From contig NZ_AUHO01000006.1 of NCBI RefSeq assembly GCF_000423225.1, forward strand, positions 248,001-312,000: 64,000 nucleotides of DNA, given 5' to 3'. The DNA comes from Kaistia adipata DSM 17808. Its GTDB lineage: Bacteria > Pseudomonadota > Alphaproteobacteria > Rhizobiales > Kaistiaceae. Positions 49,374 through 54,670 of the stretch are shown here, one piece after another (position 1 is the first letter of the stretch; every line of letters begins with the position of its first letter). The translations under genes and the position numbers were made by a program. The notes beneath the pieces were generated by a model. That model was not told the DNA's origin. It made no database searches and saw only the letters and a program-made list of their open reading frames with translations.

Positions 49374-49404
49374 GCCGCCGTAGCGCACTTGCTGGAACTG
49401 TCTT

Positions 49405-49531
49405 CTCACCTCTTCCTGCGGGAGAGGTCGGCTCGAAGAGCCGGGTGAGGGGTTAGGGAACTATCCGGTTAGGCTGTAAACCCTCACCCGCCGGCCTGTG
49501 GCCGTCGACCTCTCCCTCAGGGAGAGGTGAA
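49405..49531 (-). repeat. 127-bp palindromic intergenic repeat, copy 2
   Basis: Same element as 10161-10287, in the opposite orientation, with about 13 differences in 127 bases. The small inner hairpin has changed from GGAGC-TTC-GCTCC to GGCTC-TTC-GAGCC, that is, on both arms so pairing is kept. It overlaps the 3' end of the methyltransferase-like gene, which reads into it and stops inside. Confidence 0.88.
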
Positions 49532-50064
49532 GGGGCGGCGTTTTTCATGGCAGTTGCGACCGGGCCTCTCCGTGCCCTCAGCGCCCGGTTCTCGATCTGG
49601 ATCCGGTAGGCCAGCATGGCGAGGTTCAGGATGCCGAACACCAGCGCCGGCACCGGCAGGTTGAGCACCAGCGCCAGGAGGGGGATCTCCAGCGCGACGA
49701 CGACGTAGTTCGGATGCCGCAGATAGCGGTACGGGCCGGTCGCCCGCAACGGCGCGCCGTCTAGCGTGATGATGCGGGTGGTCCAGTACGGACCGAGGGT
49801 CGCCAACACCCAGAGTCGCAGTCCCTGCAGCAGCGCGAAGGCCGCGATCAGGATCCAGTTCACCGGCGGGCTGGGCGCGGTCCATGCCGCGAGCGTGACC
49901 AGCCAGGCGGCATGCAGCAGCACGATGACGGGATAGTGCTCCGCGCCGACCTCCCTTGCGCCGCGCGCCAGAAGGTTGCGCGTGTTGCGACGGGCATAGG
50001 CGAGTTCGACGACGCGTTGCAGCGTCACGGCGAGGAGAAGCCAGTAGGCCCAGCCGATACTCAT
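49453..50064 (-). CDS. Isoprenylcysteine carboxyl methyltransferase-family protein
   Basis: 203 residues, four or five membrane segments, with the ICMT signature ATGPYRYLRHPNYVVVALEIPLL at about 110-132. The start ATG overlaps the stop of the polyketide synthase gene by one base (TGATG). Bacterial members beside type III polyketide synthases (for example BpsB of Bacillus subtilis) O-methylate alkylpyrones; that role is likely here. The last 25 or so residues (from SPLPEGEVDG) come from the repeat and are not expected in homologues. Confidence 0.88.
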   Translation of the reverse strand: MSIGWAYWLLLAVTLQRVVELAYARRNTRNLLARGAREVGAEHYPVIVLLHAAWLVTLAAWTAPSPPVNWILIAAFALLQGLRLWVLATLGPYWTTRIITLDGAPLRATGPYRYLRHPNYVVVALEIPLLALVLNLPVPALVFGILNLAMLAYRIQIENRALRARRGPVATAMKNAAPSPLPEGEVDGHRPAGEGLQPNRIVP

Positions 50065-51179
50065 CAGCCTTCCACCCGCACCATCTGGAAGGCCGCGGTG
50101 AATCCCGGGCCGAGCGACGACGCCAGCAGGTTGCCCTTCACGCCCGTGCGGATCAGCTCGTCGAGCACGAACAGAACCGTCGGCGCCGACATGTTGCCAT
50201 AGCCCGCCAGCACGCGCCGTTCGGCGTCGAGGCCGAACTTCGAATAGCCGAAGACGATTTCCAGCTCGTCCATCACCTTGGCGCCGCCCGGATGGCAGCA
50301 CGGCCGGTCGATCGCGTCGCGGGACAGGCCGTGGCGGTCGAGGAACCCGGCCAGGGCGGCCGGGTAGTCGCCGGCGATGATCTGGGGGATGCTCTGCTGG
50401 AAGATGACGTCGAAGCCCTGCGCGTCGATGTTCCAGCCCATCACGTCGAGCGTGTCGGGCCAGCAATGTTCGCCGCCGAGGCCGAGCGCGGCGATGGCCG
50501 CTTCGTCGTTACCGCTGGTGACCACCGCGGCTGCGGCGCCGTCGCCGAACAGCGCGCTGGCTACCAGGTTGCTCTTGGTCAGCCGGTCAAAGCGGAAGGC
50601 GAGGCTGGAGAGCTCGACGACGATCATCAGACAGCGGAGGCCTGGCTCGGAACGGGCCATCTGCGCCGTGCGCGTCAGCCCGAGGACGCCGCCGGCGCAA
50701 CCGAGCCCGAACACCGGCAGCCGCATCACGTCGCTGCGAAAGGGAATGAGGTTCATCAGCCGCGCGTCGATGCTCGGCGTCGATATGCCGGTCGACGAGA
50801 CGAAGACGATGGCGTCGATGTCCTGCGGGCGGAGTTCGGCCCTGGCGAGCGCGCTGTTGGCGGCCTCGAAGGCGAGGGCGGTCGCGTGTTGCTGGTAGAG
50901 ACGCGTCTTCTCCTCGAAATCCGCCGGTCCGAGGAACCATTCGACCGGCCGACAGCTGTAGCGGCCGTCGATCGCGGCATTGTCGAAGACCTGCTCCAGC
51001 TGGTCGAAGAACGGCATCCGGGTGCCGAACACCTCGCGTGCGCGTTCCTTGGCGACGGTCTGGGAAATCCGATAGGGCGGCACGGCGGTCACCAGCGAGC
51101 GCAGCGCCGCCGTTTTCGCCGGACTGCCGGCATCCGCCGTCATGACGGCGCCTGGGAGCTGGATCAGGTTCATGCCCAC
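50064..51179 (-). CDS. Type III polyketide synthase (chalcone/stilbene synthase-like)
   Basis: 371 residues with the complete triad: Cys161 in FGLGCAGG, His296 in CCHPGGAK and Asn329 in YGNMSAPTV. Condenses an acyl-CoA starter with malonyl-CoA to an alkylpyrone or alkylresorcinol without a carrier protein. Coupling to an ICMT-like methyltransferase favours methylated alkylpyrones that would reside in the membrane. An internal ATG at 51141 (MTADAGSP) is a possible alternative start. Membrane-lipid-like products fit the neighbouring envelope-stress genes, but that link is speculative. Confidence 0.94.
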   Translation of the reverse strand: MGMNLIQLPGAVMTADAGSPAKTAALRSLVTAVPPYRISQTVAKERAREVFGTRMPFFDQLEQVFDNAAIDGRYSCRPVEWFLGPADFEEKTRLYQQHATALAFEAANSALARAELRPQDIDAIVFVSSTGISTPSIDARLMNLIPFRSDVMRLPVFGLGCAGGVLGLTRTAQMARSEPGLRCLMIVVELSSLAFRFDRLTKSNLVASALFGDGAAAAVVTSGNDEAAIAALGLGGEHCWPDTLDVMGWNIDAQGFDVIFQQSIPQIIAGDYPAALAGFLDRHGLSRDAIDRPCCHPGGAKVMDELEIVFGYSKFGLDAERRVLAGYGNMSAPTVLFVLDELIRTGVKGNLLASSLGPGFTAAFQMVRVEG

Positions 51180-51308: not shown

Positions 51309-51584
51309 CTATTGGCCGCCCGGCAAGGCCCGGTCGTAGTCGAATGTGTTGGCTGCCCAGCTCGGCCCGCGTGGCCAGGCGGGTTGATCCGGCGGACCAT
51401 GCGCGCTGAAGGACAGGCAGCGTTGGTACTGGGTGTCCCAGACCTGCTCGTTGCCGCAGGGCGGCCAACGCGCATGGCTGGTCCTTCCATGGCCGCAGGC
51501 CCCAAAGCCGGGCGCCGCGGCGGCAAGGCTGCTCCACCCGATCAGGGCTGTCGCCAACAGGACGCGGACTGTTGCCGGGGTCAT
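51309..51584 (-). CDS. Small exported protein with Cys-x4-VWD-x3-QRC motif
   Basis: 91 residues from the ATG at 51584 (GGAG eight bases before). Signal peptide (VRVLLATALIGWSSLAAA, cleavage near residue 23). The mature part is short, rich in Pro, Trp and Gly, with the motif CGNEQVWDTQYQRC, which aligns column for column with motifs in the two TPR proteins upstream. Shares the conserved upstream element at the same distance as its neighbour. No known family. Probably periplasmic. Confidence 0.6.
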   Translation of the reverse strand: MTPATVRVLLATALIGWSSLAAAAPGFGACGHGRTSHARWPPCGNEQVWDTQYQRCLSFSAHGPPDQPAWPRGPSWAANTFDYDRALPGGQ

Positions 51585-51628
51585 CGAAATGTCTCCCTCA
51601 GCCAACTGCCGAAAGGCTAGCCCTTGCC

Positions 51629-51678
51629 GGCGTAGGTTTCGATCTCCAAATCCCGGCGCCGGGGTCACGAAGTGGTGA
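51629..51678 (-). promoter_or_regulatory. Conserved two-block upstream element, copy for the small exported protein
   Basis: On the minus strand TCACCACTTCGTGACC (51663-51678), then TCGAAACCTACGCC (51629-51642). The first block is 78 bases before the ATG at 51584. Copies are found before the two TPR genes at 52362-52410 and 53228-53275. Candidate promoter or operator of the neighbouring sigma system. Confidence 0.55.
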
Positions 51679-51734
51679 CGGCCGGGCCGGCGGCGCGCCC
51701 GAATGGACGTCGCCGGCTGGTTTCGGAATTGCCG

Positions 51735-52316
51735 TTACTCAGTTGGCTTGCCGGCGATCGCCGCGGCGAGATCCTCGTACTGCTCGCATTCCCTGCCGCC
51801 GCACAGTCTCTCGATGATGCCGAGCTCGGCCTTGGCGAGTTCCAGCTTCCCGGCGCTGGCATAGCCTTCGCCGAGATATTCGCGCGTGTTGAGGTTGTTG
51901 GGATCGATGGCGAGCGCCTGCTTGTAGAAGCCAATGCCGACGTCGGTGTCGCCCCTCTTGCGGTGGCTGTAGCCGATATAGGTCAGCACCATCGCGTCCT
52001 GCTTGTTCTGCACGGCGTCGAGCACGACCAGCGCGTCGTCATAATAGCCCGCCAGCGCCAGGGCCCGGCCCTGCTCGAGCAGTTCCTTGTCCGGCAGGTT
52101 GCTCGACTGGGCGCGGACGCAGCGCTGCAGCTTCTTGTCCCAGACGAGCCCCTGGCGGCATTGCGGCGGCGCGCTGCCCGAACCCGATGAACCGCCGCCG
52201 CCACCACCGCCGCCACTGGCGGCGAGGGCCGGCATCGCGCCGCCGAAGCCCATCATGCCCACGAAGATCGCGGCGAGCGCCGCCCGTGTCACGTCGTCGA
52301 AATGCGGTTTCATCAT
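51735..52316 (-). CDS. Exported tetratricopeptide-repeat protein, paralogue A
   Basis: 193 residues from the ATG at 52316 (AGAGGG eight bases before; a GTG at 52325 is an alternative). N-terminal signal peptide (ALAAIFVGMMGFGGAMPALA), a Gly/Ser linker, the motif CRQGLVWDKKLQRC, then two or three TPR units (ALALAGYYDDALVVLDAVQ, TYIGYSHRKRGDTDVGIGFYKQAL, YLGEGYASAGKLELAKAEL) and a Cys pair near the C-terminus (LCGGREC). About three-quarters identical to paralogue B over the TPR part. Periplasmic; function unknown. Confidence 0.85.
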   Translation of the reverse strand: MMKPHFDDVTRAALAAIFVGMMGFGGAMPALAASGGGGGGGGSSGSGSAPPQCRQGLVWDKKLQRCVRAQSSNLPDKELLEQGRALALAGYYDDALVVLDAVQNKQDAMVLTYIGYSHRKRGDTDVGIGFYKQALAIDPNNLNTREYLGEGYASAGKLELAKAELGIIERLCGGRECEQYEDLAAAIAGKPTE

Positions 52317-52361
52317 CGTCGTCACCCTCTTGCGGTTGCAGACGCTGAAACATCCATAGGT

Positions 52362-52410
52362 GGCGCCCTATTCGATGCCGGCAGGACGGCTACCGATCAC
52401 GAAATGGTGA
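52362..52410 (-). promoter_or_regulatory. Conserved two-block upstream element, copy for TPR paralogue A
   Basis: On the minus strand TCACCATTTCGTGATC (52395-52410), then TCGAATAGGGCGCC (52362-52375). The first block is 78 bases before the ATG at 52316, exactly as for the small exported protein. Confidence 0.6.
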
Positions 52411-52432
52411 GGTGCCGGGTTCGCGCGCGACG

Positions 52433-52487
52433 GGGGCGGCGGCCCGCGCCACGGGCCGCTGCCCCCGAGAACCCGCCGAAGGGCGGG
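52433..52487 (-). terminator. Tandem hairpins after TPR paralogue B
   Basis: Two hairpins lie downstream of the paralogue B stop on its strand. One has stem CCCGCC / GGCGGG (52472-52487). The other has a 14-bp stem with one wobble (52433-52446 with 52452-52465). No T-run. They probably end or protect the paralogue B transcript, so paralogue A needs its own promoter. Confidence 0.5.
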
Positions 52488-52503
52488 CATGCCGCCTGGA
52501 TCC

Positions 52504-53163
52504 CTATTCGGCCGGATTGCCGCCGACCGCGGCGGCCAGATCCTCGTATTGCTCGCATTCGGTGTTGCCGCACAGCTTCTGCACGATCGCGAGCTCGGCC
52601 TTGGCGAGCTCGATCCGCCCGGCGCTGGCATAGCCTTCGCCGAGATACTCATGCGTATTGAGGTTGTTCGGGTCGAGCGCGAGCGCCTGCTTGTAGAAGT
52701 CGATGCCGACGTCGGTATCGCCCTTCTTGCGGTGGCTGTAGCCGATATAGGTCAGCACCATGGCGTCCTGCTTGTTCTGGACTGCATCCAACACCTCGAG
52801 CGCGTTGTCGTGGTAGCCGGCCAGGGCGAGTTGCCGGCCTTGCTGGAACAGTTCCTGGTCCGTCAGGCCGCTCGACTTCGCCTTCACGCAGCGATGCACC
52901 TTCTGGCTGAAGACGAAGCCAAGACGGCAGACCTGGTCGGCGGGCATGAAGTGGCTGCTGCCACTGCTGCCGCTGCTCGCGCCACCGCCGCCGCCGCCCA
53001 TGCCACCCCCGCCGCCACCGCTGCTTCCGCCGCCGCCGCCACTGCTGCCACCGCCGCCACTGCTGCCACCGCTATGGGCGAGCGCCGCGCCGGTCGAGGC
53101 GAGCAGGCCAATGAATGCGATCGTGATGATCGATCGCGTCGTCTTTTCGAACATGGTTGTCAT
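52504..53163 (-). CDS. Exported tetratricopeptide-repeat protein, paralogue B
   Basis: 219 residues from the ATG at 53163 (GGAGG five bases before). Signal peptide (IITIAFIGLLASTGAALA), then a long Gly/Ser tract of about 45 residues encoded by CCG-rich codons on the plus strand, then CRLGFVFSQKVHRC, the same TPR array as paralogue A and a C-terminal Cys pair (LCGNTEC). The linker is much longer than in paralogue A. Divergent from the sigma-factor gene. Function unknown. Confidence 0.85.
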   Translation of the reverse strand: MTTMFEKTTRSIITIAFIGLLASTGAALAHSGGSSGGGGSSGGGGGSSGGGGGGMGGGGGGASSGSSGSSHFMPADQVCRLGFVFSQKVHRCVKAKSSGLTDQELFQQGRQLALAGYHDNALEVLDAVQNKQDAMVLTYIGYSHRKKGDTDVGIDFYKQALALDPNNLNTHEYLGEGYASAGRIELAKAELAIVQKLCGNTECEQYEDLAAAVGGNPAE

Positions 53164-53227
53164 CGGAGCCTCCGACTGGTTTCCTCTCGCCGCGAAGTCG
53201 AGAGTCGCGGCAAGAACAGCAGGGGCG

Positions 53228-53275
53228 GGAGCCCTATTCGTTCGCCCATGTCGAGCAGCGGTCACGATCCGGTGA
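53228..53275 (-). promoter_or_regulatory. Conserved two-block upstream element, copy for TPR paralogue B
   Basis: On the minus strand TCACCGGATCGTGACC (53260-53275), then ACGAATAGGGCTCC (53228-53241), 96 bases before the ATG at 53163. The first block overlaps the first codons proposed for the divergent sigma factor. Being partly palindromic (TCAC/GTGA), it could serve both directions. Confidence 0.55.
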
Positions 53276-53787
53276 AGGACGGCCTGGCGCTTCATCTCGA
53301 GGCGCTGTGGCGCTATGGCCTTGTGCTGTCGCGCAACCGCGACACGGCGGAGGATCTCGTGCAGGCAACCTGCGTCCGGGCGCTGGAGCGCGCCGAGCAG
53401 TTCGCCCCGGGCACCCGGCTGGATCGCTGGCTGTTCGCGATACTGCGCTCGATCTGGCTCAACGAGCTGCGCGCCCGGCGCGTGCGGCAGGGCAGCGGGG
53501 TCGTCGACGCCGAAGTCGCGCTGGTCTTCGAGGGAAGCGAGGCGATCGAGACGAATATTCTCGCGGCTCAGGTGTTAAGCGAGATCGGACGGATGGCCGA
53601 AGCTCAGCGGGAAACCGTCCTGCTGGTCTACGGCGAAGGTTTCTCGTATCGGGAGGCGGCCGACCTTCTCGGAGTACCCATTGGAACGATCATGAGCCGA
53701 TTGGCCGCCATTCGTGAAAAACTCAGTCCCCTGGCGGACATGTCCAGGCAGCCGGCGCCGCGCGGCAAGCGAGGCGACGATGTCTGA
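53248..53787 (+). CDS. ECF-family RNA polymerase sigma factor
   Basis: 179 residues if it starts at the ATG 53248; a GTG at 53272 would give 171 and would free the upstream motif from coding sequence. Sigma region 2 (LVLSRNRDTAEDLVQATCVRALERAEQF ... LDRWLFAILRSIWLNELRARR) and region 4 (GRMAEAQRETVLLVYGEGFSYREAADLLGVPIGTIMSRL) are intact. It overlaps the anti-sigma gene by eight bases and is divergent from the TPR genes it may control. Confidence 0.93.
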   Translation: MSSSGHDPVKDGLALHLEALWRYGLVLSRNRDTAEDLVQATCVRALERAEQFAPGTRLDRWLFAILRSIWLNELRARRVRQGSGVVDAEVALVFEGSEAIETNILAAQVLSEIGRMAEAQRETVLLVYGEGFSYREAADLLGVPIGTIMSRLAAIREKLSPLADMSRQPAPRGKRGDDV

Positions 53788-54613
53788 GCAATCTCATCCC
53801 GACGACCCCACCATCGTCGCCTATCTCGACGGCGAGCTGGATCCGGCCGAGCGCGCGGCGTTCGTCGCGCGGCTGGAGGCCGAGCCGGACTTGCTCCAGC
53901 GGCTTGAGGAGCTCGACCGCGGCGGCGCCGGCATCGCCGACGCGATGGCGGAACTGAAGGCGCGCGCGCCGAAGCCTCGGCTGGACGACATCCTCGCCCA
54001 GGCTGTCGCGCAGCACGCGGCGGAGGGAGACACGGTCGTGCCCTTCCGGCGCTCGCCCTTCGCGAACCTCAGCCCGCGCCAGTTAATCGCCGCGTCGGTC
54101 GCGCTGTTCCTGCTCGGCGGCATCGCCAACGACTTCCTGCGCGGGCAGCAGGCGCCGAGGCAGGAGCCGCAGCGAGCGGAGGAGGCGGAGACCACCCGGC
54201 GCGAGGACTGGCGGCAGGCCGTCGCCGAATACTGGTCGCTGACGACGCCGGAGACGCTGGCGCTGGCGCCGACGCCGGAGCGCGCCGCGGCGGAGCTGCG
54301 GCTCGCCTCGAGCAAGCTCGGCGTCGATCTGGCTGGCGTGCCCGGGCAGTTGCCGGGACTGTCCTTCCGGGGCGCGCAATTGTTCGATTTCCACGGCAAG
54401 CCGCTGGTGCAGATGGCGTTCCTCGATCCGGAGCACGGACCGATCGCCTATTGCGTGATCGATGATCCGCAGAAGGCGGAGATCGCCCGGACGACCGAGA
54501 CGCTCGACGACTTCACCATCGTGCACTGGTCATCGGGCGGCCAGGCGCGGCTGCTGATCGGCCGGGCGCCGGCCGGGCGGCTCGAGGCGCTGGCGGAGAA
54601 GGTTGCTGGCTGA
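53780..54613 (+). CDS. Membrane-anchored anti-sigma factor
   Basis: 277 residues from the ATG at 53780. The N-terminal cytosolic anti-sigma part (IVAYLDGELDPAERAAFVARLEAEPDLLQRLEEL) lacks the His-x3-Cys-x2-Cys zinc motif. A single membrane segment is at about 99-118 (LIAASVALFLLGGIANDFL), then a periplasmic domain of about 155 residues. Such a layout senses envelope signals and releases the sigma factor. Partner assignment rests on the overlap with the sigma gene. Confidence 0.9.
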   Translation: MSEQSHPDDPTIVAYLDGELDPAERAAFVARLEAEPDLLQRLEELDRGGAGIADAMAELKARAPKPRLDDILAQAVAQHAAEGDTVVPFRRSPFANLSPRQLIAASVALFLLGGIANDFLRGQQAPRQEPQRAEEAETTRREDWRQAVAEYWSLTTPETLALAPTPERAAAELRLASSKLGVDLAGVPGQLPGLSFRGAQLFDFHGKPLVQMAFLDPEHGPIAYCVIDDPQKAEIARTTETLDDFTIVHWSSGGQARLLIGRAPAGRLEALAEKVAG

Positions 54614-54639: not shown

Positions 54640-54670
54640 CTCACCTCTCCAGGAGGGAGAGGCGACGGGC
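54640..54670. repeat. Fragment of the 127-bp palindromic element
   Basis: CTCACCTCTCC-AGGAGGGAGAGG, one terminal hairpin of the element, lies between the convergent anti-sigma and rimO genes. The rest of the element is missing. Confidence 0.6.

Follow-up and report, generated by a model that had tools for sequence, protein, structure and literature searches.

Three short sequence blocks precede a row of genes beside a divergent ECF sigma/anti-sigma pair in the window, a stretch of 64,000 nucleotides from contig NZ_AUHO01000006.1 of Kaistia adipata DSM 17808. The blocks keep their spacing, are conserved in related genomes and are linked to the presence of the ECF gene. From these comparisons we consider it probable that an ECF26-like sigma factor drives genes for TPR proteins, a polyketide synthase (PKS) and a methyltransferase through a -35 element CGAATA and a -10 element YGTT, and that a putative second protein on a palindrome further upstream most likely aids recruitment. 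The type III PKS and methyltransferase genes belong to the unit, which makes the regulon larger than in the initial annotation of this DNA, where both had been overlooked.

The minus-strand genes follow one another in the order TPR3, TPR2, G1, PKS and ICMT, and the ECF and anti-sigma genes diverge from them (Table 1). TPR2 and TPR3 are paralogues with 76% identity across 141 residues; the export of TPR3 was judged by eye from its N-terminus. G1, found at 5 of the 14 genus loci with the window counted, is separated by 130 bases from PKS, whose sequence assigns it with certainty to the type III PKS family. Its closest PDB match is the alpha-pyrone synthase Pks11 (1.4e-49), and an alkylpyrone-type product may be expected. 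The start of the ICMT gene was picked by eye at the PKS stop codon. As in the ECF26 group, the anti-sigma gene lies directly downstream of the ECF gene, here with an overlap of 8 bases. For the layout of ECF26 anti-sigma factors (N-terminal anti-sigma domain, transmembrane segment, periplasmic C-terminal domain), the family matches are below cut-off and a hydrophobic stretch was seen by eye. Around the locus, similar intergenic stretches of the form CTCACCTCT...GGGAGAGG at 49400-49545 and ~54640-54670 look by eye like a dispersed repeat.

Table 1. Genes and upstream elements of the locus (positions in the window)
Feature	Position	Strand	Remark
ECF sigma factor gene, ECF26-like	53248..53787	+	Pfam Sigma70_r4_2 1.1e-11, Sigma70_r2 6.3e-10
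Anti-sigma factor gene	53780..54613	+	NCBIfam antisigma 4.5e-9, zf-HC2 0.0012, both below cut-off
TPR3, Gly/Ser-rich TPR protein gene, probably exported	52504..53163	-	Pfam TPR_2 3.4e-8
TPR2, TPR protein gene, probably exported	51735..52316	-	Pfam TPR_2 1.5e-7
G1, small protein gene, probably exported	51309..51584	-	without Pfam match
Type III polyketide synthase (PKS) gene	50064..51179	-	Pfam Chal_sti_synt_N 4.7e-21
ICMT-family methyltransferase gene	49453..50064	-	Pfam ICMT 1e-22
Block 1 (palindrome) upstream of TPR3	53260..53275	-	inside ECF coding sequence, 5' end
Block 2, -35 element CGAATA of TPR3	53235..53240	-	
Block 3, -10 element TGTT of TPR3	53215..53218	-	
Block 1 (palindrome) upstream of TPR2	52395..52410	-	non-coding
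-35 element CGAATA of TPR2	52369..52374	-	
-10 element TGTT of TPR2	52349..52352	-	CGTT in L039, L040, L043
Block 1 (palindrome) upstream of G1	51663..51678	-	non-coding
Degenerate -35 CGAAAC upstream of G1	51636..51641	-	CGAATA in L040, L041, L042, L044
Atypical -10 TAGC upstream of G1	51616..51619	-	

Block 1 is present in three exact copies on the minus strand, with zero further exact matches in the genome of 4.84 Mb. For the genes at 51584, 52316 and 53163 its end lies 78, 78 and 96 bases from the start codon, and 37, 36 and 35 bases lead from its first base to the C of CGAA; CGAATAGGGC is present at two of the three copies, the one before 51584 reading CGAAACC. The three two-block copies which the initial annotation had described are thus confirmed in coordinates and distances. 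Its statement that the surrounding DNA is intergenic needs a qualification for the third copy, which lies inside the ECF gene, and two of the genes concerned, TPR2 and TPR3, are the paralogous pair. All three zero-mismatch matches to block 1 in the window sit at these genes. With up to three mismatches, 10 matches are found in the window against a shuffle mean of 11.6, and since the count does not exceed this mean, loose matches are uninformative. In a rough test, the best shared 16-mer of the three 130-base upstream stretches scored 27, compared with at most 24 in 60 shuffles. The search of relatives that had been proposed for the two-block pattern supports the association: TCACNNNNTCGTKAYY-N16-22-GAATA has 26 matches in 18 of 61 genomes (the own genome and 60 relatives; control 0), and by coordinates every one of them adjoins a TPR match.

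A third block follows GAATA. At a distance of 16 bases, T, G, T and T are found in 28, 25, 25 and 25 of 32 sites from the window and its relatives; these sites were chosen via block 1 and GAAT or CGAAA, and the third block lay outside the selection. We also took 83 anchors [GCT]GAATA, from 450 bases upstream to 60 inside the TPR, G1 and PKS matches, at loci whose ECF reaches 50% identity or more. YGTT is offset by 16 from 37 and by 15 from 10 of these anchors, not all of which need be promoters, and the other 22 offsets together account for 8. Excerpts of a study on Sinorhizobium meliloti give mapped ECF26-target promoters as CGAATA-N16-CGTC (SMc01022), GGAATA-N16-TGTC (SMc01418) and GGAATA-N16-CGTC (rpoE4), and the group consensus of its authors as -35 GGAATA and -10 GT (PMC6180224). 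GAA and GT motifs are named for RpoE1 and RpoE4 in an excerpt of another report (PMC3511301). As CGAATA-N16-YGTT matches the mapped promoters, we read block 2 as the -35 element, block 3 as the -10 element and block 1 as a separate site. The motif CGAATA-N15/16-YGTT agrees with the ECF26 consensus, and the local sigma would be its reader. In a comparison with the ECF sigma factors of pSymA and pSymB, which leaves the chromosomal RpoE1/3/4 outside, this sigma is nearest to RpoE6 (ECF26, 2.3e-33), followed by RpoE5 (ECF15, 4.8e-23) and RpoE8 (ECF29, 2.7e-7), the three being told apart by published promoter strings. Among the points against our explanation, G1 promoters have TAGC in place of YGTT, and that of the window combines this odd -10 with a degenerate -35. 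In the presumed leader of TPR3, an inverted repeat CTCTCG...CGAGAG (~53183-53207, minus strand) was noticed by eye, with a loop that varies; it is kept in close relatives.

Block 1 is a palindrome, TCAC-N6-GTGA, with conserved outer halves and variable inner bases. Measured from the palindrome (GTGA or GTTA), the -35 element lies at 21 bases in 14 cases, at 22 in 10 and at 23 in 3; shorter spacings are 12 bases in 3 cases and 11 in 1. The remaining distances of 40 (2), 41 (1) and 46 (1) belong in three cases to a second GGAATA in G1 promoters and in one to L197. The two main spacing classes, 21-23 and 11-12, differ by one helical turn, which fits the expectation for an activator site, and a position upstream of -35 on a fixed helical face is that of a Class I activator. 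The palindrome centre would fall near -63 to -65, elsewhere -53 to -54, if the -35 element begins near -35. Of 397 genomes of the order, 15 contain TCACN6GTGA-N20-25-GAATA-N16-YGT, with 16 matches in total, each of which falls at this locus according to its coordinates (control 1). Within 450 bases of TPR, TCACN6GTGA is found in 23 of 41 rows with ECF versus 5 of 57 without (L063, L209, L221, L225 and L227; control 0 of 98). The other 18 ECF rows, five of which have GTTA (L039, L040, L045, L047, L172), show that the system can do without block 1; at L054, the promoter is present and the palindrome absent.

The TPR3 copy of block 1 coincides with ECF codons 5-10, and constraint on DNA and on protein is therefore mixed there: residues 6-7 of the ECF protein are [HN][DE] in 23 of 29 cases with the ATG at this place versus 0 of 10 with it placed otherwise (by eye; the broken L237 excluded). 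The argument for the palindrome is borne by the non-coding copies, which stand before TPR2 and G1 in the genus and between divergent PKS and TPR genes at L066, L197, L205 and L237. The palindrome is also found upstream of a gene for the binding protein of an ABC transporter, in 11 of 13 readable genus regions (L257-L262, L264-L268), with varying inner bases, ~300-340 bases before the mature part of the binding protein and adjacent to where an rsmE-like gene ends; we take the neighbouring genes to be rsmE and fbpA. It is absent there in the window's own genome and in L269, L270 being outside the 13 readable regions. Given this recurrence before a transporter gene, the palindrome probably serves a regulator that has other targets as well. 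Alternatively, block 1 could be bound by a repressor, or by a factor directed at the overlapped ECF gene, and not by an activator of TPR and PKS. Such a role would suit the TPR3 palindrome, which covers the ECF start region, and the remote position of the transporter-gene copies. However, the copies at TPR2, G1 and the divergent gene pairs are not at an ECF start, and the spacing to -35 is fixed and phased; we regard a repressor or an ECF-directed factor as unlikely.

In the 14 genus genomes, TCACNNNWTCGTGAYC has 29 matches, 15 of them at this locus; of the other 14, 6 lie between rsmE and fbpA, 3 at the end of an amidase-like gene and 2 before a cytochrome-b-type cluster, and 3 are single. 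Neither among the gene families common to at least four loci (representatives viewed by eye) nor at the other palindrome sites was a regulator gene for the palindrome-binding protein recognised. In two relatives (L102 in G009, L122 in G004), GTAAC-N17-CGTA follows the palindrome after 4 bases, near a cytochrome-b-type cluster and a gene for a small exported protein; this string resembles the ECF16 promoter reported for EcfF in excerpts of a Bradyrhizobium study (PMC3420878). At L239 in the window's own genome (C4, ~466 kb), an exact palindrome of the block 1 type lies where an lnt-like gene ends, and an XRE-like regulator gene follows it at a distance of 240 bases (both genes named by eye).

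The promoter and the ECF gene go together. In a base set of the window and 95 regions, in which the TPR matches left out are mostly the weaker ones, we took the 98 TPR matches that begin within the first 30 query residues and have 450 bases upstream at hand. Upstream of TPR, [GC]GAATA-N15/16-YGTY is present in 36 of 41 cases with an ECF in the region versus 5 of 57 without (L194, L204, L207, L210, L216), and in 0 of 98 in the reversed control. An ECF was counted from 50% identity upwards, and the regions with weaker ECF matches, L225 and L073, were scored as lacking one. The five ECF rows missing the promoter are L050, L057 and L058 (TGAATA), L056 (GAATTT) and L053. The resulting p = 4.6e-16 is nominal, because the rows are related species. 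This association bears out the suggestion that a compact regulon goes with the neighbouring ECF/anti-sigma pair. The promoter is also found upstream of cyt b-TPR-ECF on one Pantoea plasmid (L233), upstream of TPR-ECF on another Pantoea plasmid (L236) and in L234, and upstream of cyt b-ECF on a Cronobacter plasmid (L238). No palindrome is found at these four promoters, and in Microvirga (L235) TPR has an upstream palindrome and an ECF match is absent. Inspection by eye of the TPR3-ECF gap in the window showed no promoter of this kind directed towards the ECF gene. The general stress sigma EcfG (ECF15) might read these promoters in place of the local ECF, as EcfG promoters, GGAAC-N16/17-CGTT, resemble CGAAT-N17-YGTT. 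Excerpted RpoE2 promoter strings of S. meliloti show GGAAC and CGTT (PMC6180224). The -35 element is CGAATA, however, and the presence of the promoter tracks the local ECF, including the gammaproteobacterial plasmids that bear one, which makes a reading by EcfG very unlikely.

As to a wider regulon, the own genome contains 8 matches to CGAATA-N15/16-YGTTY, 2 of them at the locus (control 4), and CGAATAG-N14/15-YGTTY has 42 in the genus, 14 at this locus (control 3). Except for two look-alike pairs, the remaining genus matches are not recurrent by eye, and we claim no wider regulon. Two promoters of the CGAATAG-N15 type ending in GGCTGTTY, without palindrome, precede a Gly-rich exported protein and a DoxX-like protein in the own genome (L277, C5:328289; L272, C1:873517; names by eye), and are not recurrent in the genus. 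At three TPR loci without ECF (L176, L184, L192), GGAATA-N16-CGTA stands upstream of TPR, perhaps a promoter of the same class read by a distant ECF.

The initial annotation had likened the CGAA block to -10 elements of some ECF promoters and suggested either the -35 region or an operator for block 1. A layout with the -35 (GTGAYC) in block 1 and CGAATA as the -10 would account for the near-fixed spacing of blocks 1 and 2, but leaves YGTT, which had been missed, without explanation and requires a long spacer of ~19-21 bases. Moreover, CGAATA-N15/16-YGTT is retained at places that have only a degenerate block 1 or none, and the -35 of the mapped ECF26 promoters is GGAATA or CGAATA. We dropped this layout after the third block had been compared with the S. 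meliloti promoters, and consider it highly improbable. CGAATA is read as the -35 and YGTT as the -10, and for the palindrome, ~21 bases further upstream, an operator is the better of the two earlier alternatives.

The PKS pair gives a view of the unit in other bacteria. At all 14 loci of the genus, the PKS and ICMT genes follow TPR or G1 in the same orientation. Outside the genus, both are near TPR at L066, L173, L196, L197, L200 and L205; L237 has PKS only, as the region ends there, and L234 has weak PKS/ICMT matches. In six distant loci (L066, L196, L197, L200, L205, L237) PKS is divergent from TPR, and CGAATA-N15/16-TGTT is found on both sides of the divergent pair in 6 of 6. Between the two genes, one exact palindrome is present at L066, L197, L205 and L237, a one-mismatch form at L196 and none at L200. 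TPR, ECF and anti-sigma genes are in line at these loci, so the sigma would be self-activating there. Gene duplication as the sole source of the likeness between the three upstream regions would fit the paralogy of TPR2 and TPR3, but the spacers have diverged with the blocks retained, and these blocks reappear in other families as well as upstream of non-homologous PKS genes, which leaves this next to no probability.

The regulon had at first been matched to no described one. The promoter class is now recognised as ECF26, and for the targets and the palindrome no description was found: among the open-licence papers listed, no title or abstract links a sigma of the ECF26 group with a type III PKS or a palindrome of this kind. 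Among PKS systems, bpsB of Bacillus encodes an ICMT-family methyltransferase. Excerpts on bpsA-bpsB describe a type III PKS and a second gene in one operon with a methylated alkylpyrone as product, and mention no ECF promoter (PMC5686519). The nearest precedent found is AlgU of Azotobacter vinelandii, for which excerpts report ArsA, ArsB and ArsC, including two type III PKS, to be AlgU-dependent, that is, an ECF sigma over alkylresorcinol genes; the sigma is a different one with the promoter GAACTT/TCtgA, and TPR proteins or a neighbouring sigma gene do not appear in these excerpts (PMC10651043). With the S. meliloti ECF26 factors RpoE1, RpoE3, RpoE4 and RpoE6, the system shares the -35 GGAATA (CGAATA in SMc01022), GT in the -10 and an adjoining anti-sigma gene, whereas the targets named in excerpts of these reports include sulfite oxidation, a serine protease and a protein with a signal peptide, and an upstream palindrome, TPR proteins or a PKS do not appear in these excerpts (PMC6180224, PMC3511301). 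A context common in the ECF26 group, a lipoprotein upstream or a divergent serine protease, is replaced here by TPR, PKS and ICMT genes. The contexts of rpoE3 and rpoE4 are not widely conserved, according to an excerpt (PMC6180224), so we did not take gene context as defining ECF26. A resemblance in another respect is found with the Bradyrhizobium ecfQ promoter (ECF33), where the authors, in the excerpted text, ascribe conserved upstream boxes, one at -59, to an unknown regulator; those boxes precede the sigma gene itself and a promoter of another type, whereas the Kaistia element precedes target genes (PMC3420878).

In the proposed mechanism, a stress signal would release the ECF26-like sigma from its anti-sigma factor, and the sigma holoenzyme would read CGAATA and, after 15-16 bases, YGTT at the TPR genes. 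PKS and the methyltransferase gene would be transcribed probably through read-through from G1. A second DNA-binding protein would occupy TCAC-N6-GTGA with its centre ~63 (elsewhere 53) bases before the presumed transcription start and, phased upstream of -35, would most likely help to recruit the sigma-bound polymerase and so permit or tune firing. Much more tentatively, one may imagine a two-key switch in which full firing needs the palindrome-bound putative regulator, active also at the transporter gene. The exported TPR proteins, which accompany this sigma/anti-sigma pair from alphaproteobacteria to Pantoea plasmids, would in this view exert a periplasmic feedback on the anti-sigma factor, and the switch would lead to remodelling of the envelope by polyketide lipids.

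The usual description of an ECF promoter is a pair of short boxes which the sigma reads alone. An ECF26-type core joined to a phased palindrome that recurs at other genomic sites would be a case in which a second input gates an ECF regulon. A sigma group about which little is known thereby gains a testable job, with a type III PKS pair and exported TPR proteins under joint control, and such control would mean that envelope lipid and protein change through one switch.
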